From Parasutterella secunda (GTDB taxonomy: Bacteria; Pseudomonadota; Gammaproteobacteria; Burkholderiales; Burkholderiaceae_F), in the NCBI RefSeq assembly GCF_016901835.1, contig NZ_JACJKX010000009.1:1-64000 (forward strand): a stretch of 64,000 nucleotides of DNA, given 5' to 3'. The notes beneath the pieces are model-generated. The model was given only the letters and a program-made list of their open reading frames with translations, was not told where the DNA came from and did not search any database. Shown piece after piece: positions 29,179 through 40,240 of this stretch. The translations under genes were made by a program, and so were the position numbers. Numbering within the stretch: position 1 is the first letter of the stretch; each line of letters opens with the position of its first letter.

Positions 29179-29727
29179 TTAACGAACCTGATCAGCAGCA
29201 TGAAGTCCCAAATGATACGCTTGCTCCAGGGCACCTGTTTCTTCAATACTTCTAACCGCCAAGCCGGTCGCCAAGGCATGACCGCCATCGCGCCAATGCA
29301 AAAAGCGAAGGAAGCAGTCAAACTGAATCACGATGCCGTTCATGCTCCAGGGAGCCGGGCCCCCGCAGTTAGCGAGCAAAATCGCAGCCTTCGATTGCTT
29401 CATCAACTCTTCTCGTTTTGAATTGAAGTGATCGAGCACGGCTTTAAGTTGTGCGGTCATCCCGTAGTAATAAAGGGGAGTGGAGAAAACGACAACTTGA
29501 GACTCAAGGATGCTTGCCAAAATCTTTTGCATATCCCCGGTATCGGCCTCAACGCCTGCCTCGATCTTATCAAAATAAGCCTTGGTACACGGTTCGATAT
29601 CCATTTCGGCAACGTTAAAACGCACGACTTCGTGACCGGCCTCCAAGGCACCTTTTGTAAAGGCACGAACCATTTTGTCATTGTTGCCGTCAACAAAGGG
29701 GCTACCCATTAACACGGTTATTTTCAT
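29179..29727 (-). CDS. Flavodoxin-fold NAD(P)H-dependent oxidoreductase
   Basis: 182 residues beginning with the FMN-binding pattern MKITVLMGSPFVDGNNDKMV (GSPxxxGNxxK). The PLYYYGMTAQLKAVLDHF segment is the second flavin-contact loop typical of the NADPH-dependent FMN reductase/flavodoxin_2 group. It has no signal peptide and is cytoplasmic. The family often reduces quinones or free flavin. It is divergent from the tautomerase-DUF362 pair at 29.9-31.1 kb. A distant relative lies at 37379-37918. Confidence 0.85.
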   Translation of the reverse strand: MKITVLMGSPFVDGNNDKMVRAFTKGALEAGHEVVRFNVAEMDIEPCTKAYFDKIEAGVEADTGDMQKILASILESQVVVFSTPLYYYGMTAQLKAVLDHFNSKREELMKQSKAAILLANCGGPAPWSMNGIVIQFDCFLRFLHWRDGGHALATGLAVRSIEETGALEQAYHLGLHAADQVR

Positions 29728-35703: not shown

Positions 35704-35769
35704 CTAACTCGAATATTCAGATTTTTGATGAAATAATACCTCTCAAGATAAACTCCGTTTCAAGTGTAT

Positions 35770-37053
35770 ATGGCTCTCGACTCTTTAAAACGCAAACCGG
35801 CCGGTGTCTCCAGTGCCGTTGAGCACGACTTATCCGCTCTTCACACTCATCAAGATGACATTCCCTTCAGTGACAAAACCCATGCGGCTAACCGCTCCGC
35901 TTCTCAAGCAGTCTCAAAGCGCGAACTTTGGGCTGCCCGTATCGGTTTTTTCACAGGAGGCTTTACCGTTGCGTCCTGGGCTCCTTTAATTCCGTTTGTT
36001 CAATCCCACCTGGCACTCGAACCTTTTGTATTGGGGATTCTGCTCTTAGGCTTGGGAGTGGGCTCTTTTGTCGGCATGCCGTTAGCCGGAACCCTGACAC
36101 AAAAAATCGGCGCTCGAAATGCCATCGCAGCCTCAGGACTCCTTTCCTGCCTACTTCTGGTCCTATTGGCCCTCATGCCGGGGTTTTACTTTGAATGTGC
36201 AGCGCTTTTACTTTACGGTGTAAGCCTGGGCTGCCTGGAAGTGAGCGTCAACATTTACGGCACCTATCTGGAAAATCGCAACAAGGCCCGATTAATGAGC
36301 GGCTTACATGCGGCTTACTCAATAGGGGAAGTGGCCTCGGCCGCTGCGTTAACGGCACTTTTTGTGAGCGGTGCCACGCCCTTGGGTGCCGTCACCACGT
36401 TAATGCTGATCCTGGGTATTGCACTCATTACGATCCTTCGCCGGATTAAAAATCACAAAATTGACACCCCTAAAAAGGAAAAGAAACAAAAGAGCGCCTT
36501 ATCTTTAAAAGGTCCGGTCGGCATTTTGGCCATTATCTGCGCAGTCATTTTCCTGACCGAAGGCGCCATGCTTGACTGGAGCGCCATTTACCTTCGGGAT
36601 AACGCAGGTGTTCCCCAAGAAGCGAGCGCTTTCGGCTATACATTGTTTGTCATCGCCATGGCGATTTCGCGACTGATCGGCGATCGTCTCACGACCCGAC
36701 TCGGTGCTCTTAATATGCTTTTGATCGGTACGACGATCATGTTGGCAACGCTCTTGACCTTAGTTTTCATTCCCCATGCCGTGACAGCTTTTGCCGCGCT
36801 TTTTGTCATGGGACTGGGCATTGCCAATCTGGCTCCGATTTTGATTTCTGCAGCCTCAAGAAGCACGACTATGGATAGTGTGAAAGCCATTACGACTGTC
36901 ACCACGGTCGGCTACGGTGGGCTCCTTGCCGGTCCTGCTTTGATCGGTGCCATCTCATCGGCCATTTCTTTGCAAGGTGCGTTTCTCTTTATTTGTGCCC
37001 TGTTAGTAACGGGATTGGTACTGATTTCGCGCCATCGAACGGTTTTTAATTAA
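35770..37053 (+). CDS. MFS transporter (YbjJ-like)
   Basis: About 427 residues from ATG 35770 (an in-frame GTG at 35764 is possible). It has about 12 membrane segments after a hydrophilic N-terminus of some 50 residues, unusually long. The SGLHAAYSIGEVASAAALTA segment and the LLGLGVGSFVGMPLAGTLTQ loop resemble YbjJ/FucP-like members. The substrate is unknown; control by the divergent LysR gene is likely. A terminator follows at 37061. Confidence 0.83.
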   Translation: MALDSLKRKPAGVSSAVEHDLSALHTHQDDIPFSDKTHAANRSASQAVSKRELWAARIGFFTGGFTVASWAPLIPFVQSHLALEPFVLGILLLGLGVGSFVGMPLAGTLTQKIGARNAIAASGLLSCLLLVLLALMPGFYFECAALLLYGVSLGCLEVSVNIYGTYLENRNKARLMSGLHAAYSIGEVASAAALTALFVSGATPLGAVTTLMLILGIALITILRRIKNHKIDTPKKEKKQKSALSLKGPVGILAIICAVIFLTEGAMLDWSAIYLRDNAGVPQEASAFGYTLFVIAMAISRLIGDRLTTRLGALNMLLIGTTIMLATLLTLVFIPHAVTAFAALFVMGLGIANLAPILISAASRSTTMDSVKAITTVTTVGYGGLLAGPALIGAISSAISLQGAFLFICALLVTGLVLISRHRTVFN

Positions 37054-37060
37054 CGAACAC

Positions 37061-37094
37061 ATGGCTCTCTTTCTGATGATCGGGAGCCATTTTT
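37061..37094 (+). terminator. Intrinsic terminator of the MFS gene
   Basis: A 9-bp stem ATGGCTCTC/GGGAGCCAT with one G-U pair and a 12-base loop, followed by TTTT. It lies 7 bases after the stop codon. Confidence 0.75.
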
Positions 37095-37167
37095 CGATAC
37101 CTCTCTGATTCAGTTAACATTTCTAAACAACTTCAACAAAAAATAGCCTTTTGGTCAGCTTTTTAAC

Positions 37168-37196
37168 TTGGTACTAACCCTAATATTTTTTATACT
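37168..37196 (+). promoter_or_regulatory. Promoter without a following protein gene
   Basis: TTGGTA at 37168-37173, a 17-base spacer and TATACT at 37191-37196. Initiation near 37203 would transcribe only the small RNA candidate before its terminator. Confidence 0.6.
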
Positions 37197-37202
37197 AAAG
37201 GC

Positions 37203-37271
37203 AATGGAATGATCCAATTCCCCCTCATATGCCCCCAAAGTCAAGCGAAGCTTTGTCGGGGCATTTTTTTT
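37203..37271 (+). ncRNA. Candidate orphan small RNA of about 69 nt
   Basis: The transcript predicted from the promoter at 37168-37196 has a short 5' hairpin (GGAAT-GATCCA-ATTCC, 37206-37221), a single-stranded pyrimidine-rich linker CCCTCATA, and an intrinsic terminator. The terminator pairs TGCCCC (37230-37235) with GGGGCA (37258-37263) and CAAAG with CTTTG, followed by eight T. There is no room for a protein and the next gene is convergent. The layout is that of an Hfq-type regulatory RNA. I do not recognise a known family. Confidence 0.55.
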
Positions 37272-37378
37272 GAGCCTTCATAGTCTTCTGTTGGAGCTGA
37301 ATTTTCAAAATTTTCCCCAAAAATTAAACGACCGCCTCCTGCCGGAAACGCGGTCCCATTAAGAAAAAACAGACAAAT

Positions 37379-37918
37379 TCAATCCCGTACTGACAGACCG
37401 AAGCGTCGAGCAGCCTCAGGATAGCCGGAAGCTTTAGTCATGGAGGGCGTTCCGCAGCCGGCGCCCAGGATCATGCCTTCGTCCCTGAAGTTCAGATAGC
37501 GCACCAACGTTAGATAGTGCGCTTTAAGCGCATCAAAGGTCCAATCAGCGCTATTCCATTCTGCTGCAATCAGTGCCGAGCGCATATGCTTGGCGTGCAA
37601 CGAGGAATTAAACGCACAAAAGCGGTCAATTACGATTTTGAGTTGTGAAGAGAAGCCGTAGTAATAAAGTGGAGTGACAAAAACCAGCATATCCGACTTC
37701 AAAATGTCTGCTTTGAGTTTTTTCATGCCGTCTTTTTGTGCACAAGGTCCTTTGTATCCGCAACGAATGCAACCGAGACACGGATGAATATTGGCATGGG
37801 TCACGTCAACAAGACGCACGTCGTGTCCGGCTTCGCTCGCTCCGTCCGCAAAAGATTCGGCGAGTATCGCAGACGAGCCGTGGATATTCGGACTGCCTTT
37901 TAACATCAAGATTCTCAT
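37379..37918 (-). CDS. Flavodoxin-fold (iron-sulfur?) NAD(P)H oxidoreductase
   Basis: 179 residues with the FMN loop MRILMLKGSPNIHGSSAILA. A cysteine-rich segment follows: CLGCIRCGYKGPC (four Cys near residues 48-60), as in iron-sulfur flavoproteins and related FMN reductases. LYYYGFSSQLKIVIDRF is the second flavin loop. It has no signal peptide. It is the third gene of a minus-strand group (alcohol dehydrogenase, flavodoxin, this gene) and lies 18 bases after the flavodoxin stop. Confidence 0.82.
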   Translation of the reverse strand: MRILMLKGSPNIHGSSAILAESFADGASEAGHDVRLVDVTHANIHPCLGCIRCGYKGPCAQKDGMKKLKADILKSDMLVFVTPLYYYGFSSQLKIVIDRFCAFNSSLHAKHMRSALIAAEWNSADWTFDALKAHYLTLVRYLNFRDEGMILGAGCGTPSMTKASGYPEAARRFGLSVRD

Positions 37919-37936
37919 CGTCGCACCTCAAGCGAA

Positions 37937-38407
37937 TTAAATATCGAGCGACCGGACCCACTGCGCCGCCGCACGACTTGAAGTTAAAAGCTTGACGCTT
38001 TCAACATGGAGTTGGGGGTAGCGGGACTTAAGGTCTTTAAATGCCTCCGAAGAATCGCTGCCACCGGAAGTACAGAAAGCTATGACACGTTTTCCGTCCG
38101 TTTGAATACTGTCAAGGAATGTATCCACCGGACGGGGCGCCACGCCCCACCAAATCGGAAAACCGACGATCAACACGTCATAGTCGGTCAGGTCAGCCGT
38201 CTTAAAGGCCAGAGCCGGGCGACAGTCAGGATCCTTCATCTCTAAAGAGCTTCTGCTTTGAGGATTGGTCCAATTTAAATCAGCCGAGCTATAAGCTTGA
38301 GCAGGTTTGATTTCAAACAGATCCGCCCGACAAGCGTCCGCCACCGCACGAGCGGCTTTAGCCGTCGTGCCGGTCGCGGAAAAATAAGCAACCAAAATCT
38401 TGCTCAT
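37937..38407 (-). CDS. Cytoplasmic flavodoxin
   Basis: A 156-residue flavodoxin with the phosphate loop FSATGTTAKAARAVA and the tryptophan loop GFPIWWGVAPRPVDTFL. Its sequence parallels the exported flavodoxin at 25893, including the F-C-T-S-G-G-S segment, but it has no signal peptide. The start overlaps the stop of the upstream alcohol dehydrogenase gene by one base, so the two are translationally coupled. Confidence 0.88.
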   Translation of the reverse strand: MSKILVAYFSATGTTAKAARAVADACRADLFEIKPAQAYSSADLNWTNPQSRSSLEMKDPDCRPALAFKTADLTDYDVLIVGFPIWWGVAPRPVDTFLDSIQTDGKRVIAFCTSGGSDSSEAFKDLKSRYPQLHVESVKLLTSSRAAAQWVRSLDI

Positions 38408-39576
38408 CAGAGGCTTTCCTTTAAAACCTTAACGATTTCGCCATGATCGAGCACCTTGTAGCCGCCTTTGAGAATCAATGTAGCGCCCGCAATGCCTTCA
38501 ATCATGTCTTCAGTTGCACCCAATTCCGAGATGCTCATCGCCAGACCCAATTCACGCATCCAGCTTTCCATAGCTTTCAAACCTTCTTCGGCCACTGCCT
38601 CATCGGTCTTACCGTCAGCGCTGACACCCCAGACGTTGATGGCAAAGCGCTTGAATTTAGCCAAACCGTAAGGCAGGATGTGACGATAGTAAGGCAGTGA
38701 CACGGCAGCAAGCGTCATGCCGTGCGTAGCATTAGTATGGGCACCAACGGCCTGACCCAACATGTGAACCATCCAGTCCGTGCTCTTACCCTTGGCAATC
38801 AAAGTATTCAATGCCCACGTGGCCGTCCACATAATGTTGCTGCGGGCTTCATAGTTTTGGGAATCCTTATTGGCAATACGGCTTGAATGCACAACAGACT
38901 TCATTAAAGCTTCGGCAATGTAGTCGCTTGTATTGTCATCGGTGCCCGAAAAATATTGCTCACAGATGTGGTTGAAAATATCGTAGATACCGGCCACCAT
39001 CTGGTAGTGGGGCAGGGTGAGCGTGTAGCGGGGATTGAGGATAGAGAAGCGAGGCATGATTTTTTCATCAGAAAAAACATGACCGACTTTCATCTTCTTT
39101 TCGGTATTGGTAATCACCGAGCCCGCATTCATTTCTGAGCCCGTGCCTACCATCGTCAATACGCAACCCACTGGAATCGTTTCACAATCAGGCTCTTCAA
39201 AACGAACGAAATATTTTTCCCAAGGATCGTCAGAGCAATTGACAGAAACCGAGACGGCCTTCGCGTAGTCGCAAACAGAACCTCCGCCCACGGCGAGCAG
39301 TAAATCAGCCTTATGAGCACGGGCAATTTCAATGCCTTCATAAAGTTTAGCCAACGTCGGATTGGGCATTACGCCTGCAATTTCTGCAACATTTTTACCC
39401 TTAGCCTTCAGGATTTCGATCACTTCATCGTAAATGCCGTTTTTCTTAATCGAGCCGCCGCCGTAAACCAAAACCACATTCTGACCATACTTTGGCAATT
39501 CAGTATTCAGATATTGAAGAGATTGATCACCGAAATAAAGCTTGGTGGGATTGCAGTAAGAAAAGTTTCCTAACAT
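38407..39576 (-). CDS. Iron-containing alcohol dehydrogenase (butanol dehydrogenase-like)
   Basis: A 389-residue type III dehydrogenase. The NAD(P) region shows GGGSIKKNG and AVGGGSVCDYAKAVS, then GTGSEMN. Metal-ligand segments are GIYDIFNHICEQYF and a C-terminal HMLGQAVGAHTNATHG. It should interconvert an aldehyde and alcohol with NAD(P)H; the close group is YqhD/BdhA. It heads the operon with two flavodoxin-type genes and is divergent from the cyclophilin-like gene at 39824. Confidence 0.93.
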   Translation of the reverse strand: MLGNFSYCNPTKLYFGDQSLQYLNTELPKYGQNVVLVYGGGSIKKNGIYDEVIEILKAKGKNVAEIAGVMPNPTLAKLYEGIEIARAHKADLLLAVGGGSVCDYAKAVSVSVNCSDDPWEKYFVRFEEPDCETIPVGCVLTMVGTGSEMNAGSVITNTEKKMKVGHVFSDEKIMPRFSILNPRYTLTLPHYQMVAGIYDIFNHICEQYFSGTDDNTSDYIAEALMKSVVHSSRIANKDSQNYEARSNIMWTATWALNTLIAKGKSTDWMVHMLGQAVGAHTNATHGMTLAAVSLPYYRHILPYGLAKFKRFAINVWGVSADGKTDEAVAEEGLKAMESWMRELGLAMSISELGATEDMIEGIAGATLILKGGYKVLDHGEIVKVLKESL

Positions 39577-39823
39577 TGATTCTCTCCTAAAAAAACAAAC
39601 TCAATGACACTAAGAGACGCTGATTACTATAGTGCAAACTGCCAAATCAACTGTGACTGTTTCTCTAAATTGTTTGCACAAAAAAGGCATTTTTCCGGGA
39701 ATAATTTTTAAGTTATAGATGCTCAAAGAGAGAATTCATCAATAATTCGGTGCACTTATGGAAGAATGATTTCAGCTCTTAGGAGAAAATAAACTTGAAA
39801 ACGATCTCAATAGGAGAATTCTG

Positions 39824-40240
39824 ATGTTCAAACACATTCTCCCTATCGCTTTAGCAATGTCTTTAGCAGGAGAAACCATGGCTGCAACAATTGAAATGGT
39901 TGTAGACGATAAAGTCTATAACGTTGAATTAGCCGATCACGCTGCGGCTCAAGATTTAATGAGCCGGCTGCCGATGACGCTCACCTTTGAAAACTTCGGA
40001 CAAACCGAACGTATTGCTTATTTAGAAAATGCACTCAAGCTCGGCAATGCGCCGACTTCAACGACACCCGTCGTCGGTGATTTTGCCTACTACATTCCCT
40101 GGGGCAACGTTTGCGTATTCATTAAAGACTTCCGTCATTCTTCTGATTTAGTGCCGATGGGGAAGATGTCCGAAGAGGCCACCGAAGCCGTTCGTAAAAG
40201 CGAGGATCGGCCGGTGACTTTCAGAGCGATCCAAAAGTAA
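39824..40240 (+). CDS. Exported cyclophilin-like fold protein
   Basis: 138 residues with a signal peptide (MFKHILPIALAMSLAGETMA) and a mature domain of the cyclophilin-like type: DDKVYNVELADHAAAQDLMS, MTLTFENFGQTERIAYL, then VGDFAYYIPWGNVCVFIKDF. These proteins have unknown function and no proven prolyl isomerase activity. They often occur next to flavodoxins and oxidoreductases. It is followed 26 bases later by a DUF362 gene. Confidence 0.82.
   Translation: MFKHILPIALAMSLAGETMAATIEMVVDDKVYNVELADHAAAQDLMSRLPMTLTFENFGQTERIAYLENALKLGNAPTSTTPVVGDFAYYIPWGNVCVFIKDFRHSSDLVPMGKMSEEATEAVRKSEDRPVTFRAIQK

Follow-up and report, generated by a model that had tools for sequence, protein, structure and literature searches.

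Does the spacer between two convergent genes in this 64,000-nucleotide stretch of DNA (the window) encode an orphan small RNA with its own promoter and terminator, as an earlier note had proposed from the letters alone? The spacer (37054–37378, 325 nt) separates the gene for an MFS transporter (35764–37053, + strand) from that for an NADPH-dependent FMN reductase (37379–37918, − strand). The elements of the candidate have the coordinates and sequences that the note had given, and its statement that no protein gene is present holds as well: an ORF scan of the spacer yielded nothing plausible, and a small protein was rejected, the single frame that is open across the element (24 codons from the ATG at 37210) continuing through the terminator. 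tRNA and Rfam scans detected neither a tRNA nor an Rfam family at the candidate. The MFS gene ends at a separate terminator of its own (about 37061–37095, + strand, −16.0 kcal/mol, z −4.5), ∼140 nt upstream of the candidate's hairpin, so the candidate's terminator is not needed for that gene. The FMN reductase has an FMN-reductase-like paralogue elsewhere in the window (29197–29727), the two being 34% identical.

Alone among the candidate's elements, the terminator clearly exceeds chance. Its hairpin (37229–37264), built from an AUGCCCC/GGGGCAU outer stem and an inner stem, runs into eight T at 37264–37271 (i.e., a U8 tail), and the complete intrinsic terminator (37229–37271, + strand; −16.9 kcal/mol, z −4.0) was not equaled by any of 200 shuffles, which bears out the strong terminator with eight T described earlier. 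The hairpin begins 32 nt past the −10 element of a sigma-70-like promoter candidate (TTGGTA, 17 nt, TATACT; 37168–37196, + strand) that agrees with the consensus at 9 of 12 positions. If this promoter is used, the positions of promoter and terminator predict a transcript of ∼68–70 nt (37202–37271, + strand), and the terminator contributes most of the fold energy calculated for the whole RNA (−21.5 kcal/mol, z −3.2). A 5' hairpin, which the note had also described, is indeed predicted (GGAAU/AUUCC with a six-base loop; 37206–37221, + strand), but it is weak (−4.6 kcal/mol, z −0.8 to −1.35) and within chance, 12–20% of shuffles folding equally well or better. As to the CCCTC-rich single-stranded linker, seven bases, CCCUCAU (37222–37228, + strand), are free in the predicted fold, whereas two of the five C in the CCCCCTC run are paired in the 5' hairpin.

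The promoter had been called a good one with 17-base spacing. Site and spacing are as described, but 23% of dinucleotide shuffles of the spacer contain a promoter of equal grade, which places the candidate's own start for a primary transcript (9/12 positions) within the range of chance; between 35 and 39.5 kb, three promoter-like sites were found versus 4.5 expected. Promoter and strong terminator in this order occur in 0.1% of spacer shuffles, a rarity that comes nearly all from the terminator (0.6% of shuffles). In 455 kb of the genome, the sample on which the genome-wide counts are based, 11 intergenic pairs of promoter and terminator no more than 150 nt apart satisfy loose criteria. An arrangement of this kind is therefore not unusual, and the number suggests several dozen such pairs genome-wide.

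No homologue of the candidate was found in 8 further genomes of the same genus and 66 of the same family by blastn, pattern search, or covariance model. Blastn against 61 genomes returned, besides the candidate itself, just scraps of 15–31 bases, and both a 22-base pattern with 3 mismatches allowed and a single-sequence covariance model, each run on 67 genomes, returned the candidate's own copy only. The best other match of the covariance model has an E value of 0.02 for one genome and about 1 over all, and the weak additional matches were rejected as terminator-only or as alignments with broken pairs. Plasmids and viral contigs gave no match, and Rfam at gathering and lax thresholds gave chance matches only (e.g., Hrs1 or RsaJ on the opposite strand, NsiR1 at E 4). 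The same tool served for a positive control: with a covariance model made from seven family sequences of a double-hairpin sRNA type, that sRNA was recovered in 23 genomes (E 1e-21 to 7e-8), so the method detects conserved short sRNAs of this family where they are present. It should be noted that seven of the 23 control matches are the build sequences, which match by construction, the other 16 being new, and that control and candidate are not fully equal, a model of seven sequences being compared with a model of one. Conservation in close relatives, on which the earlier note had let its proposal stand or fall, was not seen: the candidate is absent from every genome searched, and it has no seed conserved in related species of the kind expected of an Hfq-dependent trans-acting sRNA.

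Judging by named relatives, the window belongs to the Parasutterella secunda / Candidatus Aphodousia group. The gene neighborhood differs between lineages. In P. secunda (L048) and Ca. A. faecigallinarum (L050), an MFS orthologue (78–79% identical) is followed by a terminator, ∼180–200 nt, and a cyclophilin-like gene that is the counterpart of the gene at 39824 in the window. The candidate is absent from both of these homologous junctions, the spacers do not align, and the genes for Fe-ADH, flavodoxin, and FMN reductase (37379–39576, all on the − strand) are missing there. Window positions 37100–39823 are a lineage-specific block between MFS and cyclophilin-like genes that are neighbors in the sister species. 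Fe-ADH is found elsewhere in the family (68–84% identity), with the flavodoxin gene adjoining it in both loci read, and a search around further copies of the Fe-ADH/flavodoxin operon turned up no candidate-like element. Nor did 398 other genomes of the order yield a close relative of this FMN reductase, and no direct repeats were seen to flank the inserted block. The candidate lies at the margin of the block, where leftover regulatory signals would be expected.

The reading that we favor, with a probability approaching one half, is that of a short non-coding transcription unit of an ordinary kind, restricted to a single lineage. In this reading a ∼70-nt RNA would start from a moderate sigma-70 promoter and end at the strong intrinsic terminator, in a convergent spacer that may have arisen as the Fe-ADH/flavodoxin/FMN-reductase block came between the MFS and cyclophilin-like genes. 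A serious but more tentative possibility is that the hairpin is a spare terminator, either an additional one downstream of the MFS gene or the remnant of a gene that the rearrangement removed; the promoter-like site would then match by chance in DNA that is AT-rich, and no separate RNA would be produced. The terminator being the one clearly non-random element, the promoter being of a grade expected by chance, and the spacer lying at the edge of a lineage-specific segment all fit such a spare terminator, but a good terminator of the MFS gene is already present upstream, and a 17-nt-spaced promoter stands at just the right distance. We estimate that there is about an even chance that the candidate is transcribed and consider a selected regulatory role rather doubtful; the element would at best be a commonplace short noncoding transcript of one species and at worst a chance promoter ahead of a spare terminator. 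The proposed orphan sRNA is partly supported, a promoter-like site and a strong terminator both being present in the right order, but it is a weak candidate: it is unconserved, and its promoter is within chance.

In its layout the candidate agrees with a short orphan transcription unit, and Hfq is encoded in the genome, so an sRNA is possible, and the U8 tail agrees with the run of at least six U on the intrinsic terminator that characterizes Hfq-dependent sRNAs. If the lineage-restricted unit is transcribed, its U8 tail and short C-rich linker might allow Hfq binding and weak pairing with G-rich mRNA starts. That it is instead a trans-acting sRNA of a conserved type, the C-rich linker of which pairs with ribosome binding sites and represses mRNAs, is unlikely: Hfq, the predicted unpaired linker, the U8 tail, and precedents in Burkholderia cenocepacia (PMC5688073) and Bordetella pertussis (PMC11722255) speak for it, but there is no homologue in the searched genomes, and the pairing is no better than that of shuffled sequences. 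With RNAduplex, the C-rich part was paired with 396 start regions (starts assigned by a simple rule, mRNA accessibility ignored, about a quarter of the genome) and compared with 60 shuffles; the mean energy was −10.3 kcal/mol versus −11.0 kcal/mol for the shuffles, and the ten best targets averaged −20.2 versus −20.3. GAGGGG, the complement of CCCCUC, stands upstream of just 2 of the 396 starts. The C-rich bases thus match Shine-Dalgarno regions no better than their composition predicts; the idea that the linker is suited to ribosome binding sites did not hold up, target prediction with it gave no target signal among the 396 start regions, and a trans-acting role by such pairing is unsupported. 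If transcribed, the candidate would add a further unconserved intergenic sRNA to a gut genus that has been little studied and would be mainly of value for annotation; it has a larger value as a caution that promoter, terminator, and C-rich linker together do not suffice to infer a regulator where the sequence is missing from sister species.

The sRNA that served as the control is itself CU-rich, belongs to a branch of RF02278 (mostly below the Rfam gathering score), and has a near-invariant loop, CCCCCTCTCCTC. It is present in 23 of 67 family genomes at the E values given above (L160, L162, L168, L176–L179, and L184–L206; match about 1493–1575), at many loci immediately downstream of a gene whose end resembles that of an RpoH-type sigma factor (SAERIRQIEAKALRKMR), and it seems to be under-annotated. 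In the window's genus (L209–L216), hardly any DNA separates the sigma factor gene from the next reading frame, so there is no room for the sRNA at that place; the family model finds no confident copy in this genus, and the absence is apparently genus-wide. The genome that contains the window has its best RF02278-like match at L180 (G000:C67:62617-62662), with 24.9 bits, far below gathering; there, a TTTCTCCTTG stretch precedes a terminator-like hairpin with T8. It is conceivable, at a very low probability, that the candidate is an Hfq-binding sRNA of recent origin and limited to one species, which arose at the border of a redox operon that had newly arrived and which, in a genus where the rpoH-linked sRNA was lost, took on a similar C-rich role directed at ribosome binding sites.

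How, then, does the candidate compare with known RNAs? RF02278 (Betaproteobacteria toxic small RNA) comprises double-hairpin RNAs such as ncS03, ncS05, ncS27, and ncS62 of B. cenocepacia, in which CU-rich members are predicted to cover ribosome binding sites (PMC5688073). The candidate is not a member: it lacks the UCUCCUCC motif, a CU-rich stretch that would be expected either 5'-terminally or within the hairpin 1 loop, and the RF02278 covariance model gives nothing at its position at gathering (50 bits) or up to E 10, nor is it among the RF02278 matches listed for its own genome. That it might be a strongly diverged or relocated member, as its size class, its pair of hairpins, a TCCCCCTC word common to both, and a terminator of similar form (GCCCC..GGGGCATTTTTTT) could suggest, is the least probable reading of all, given that the RF02278 model does not detect it, that its CU-rich stretch comes after hairpin 1 and not before it or in its loop, and that the family-branch model reaches only 8.5 bits, on the terminator only, a score by which a relocated copy of the rpoH-linked sRNA was rejected as well. 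S17S of B. pertussis, from an organism of the same order, is a C/U-rich sRNA that represses its targets, is generated by RNase E processing, and is reported to contain a 27-nt stretch that is conserved across Betaproteobacteria (PMC11722255); the candidate resembles it in length (∼70 nt), in its C/U-rich single-stranded region, and in its long T-run terminator, but has no such conserved sequence, and S17S is a processed RNA. A screen in Sinorhizobium meliloti (PMC2573895) used sequence similarity in relatives, which is absent here, as one of its features, but likewise looked at intergenic pairs of orphan promoter and intrinsic terminator. The nearest known architecture is that of the RF02278 double-hairpin type: although the candidate's hairpin 1 is short and weak and its C-rich bases follow it, the two have in common a length of ∼60–70 nt, an intergenic location, C/U-rich unpaired bases, and two hairpins, the second of which is an intrinsic terminator.
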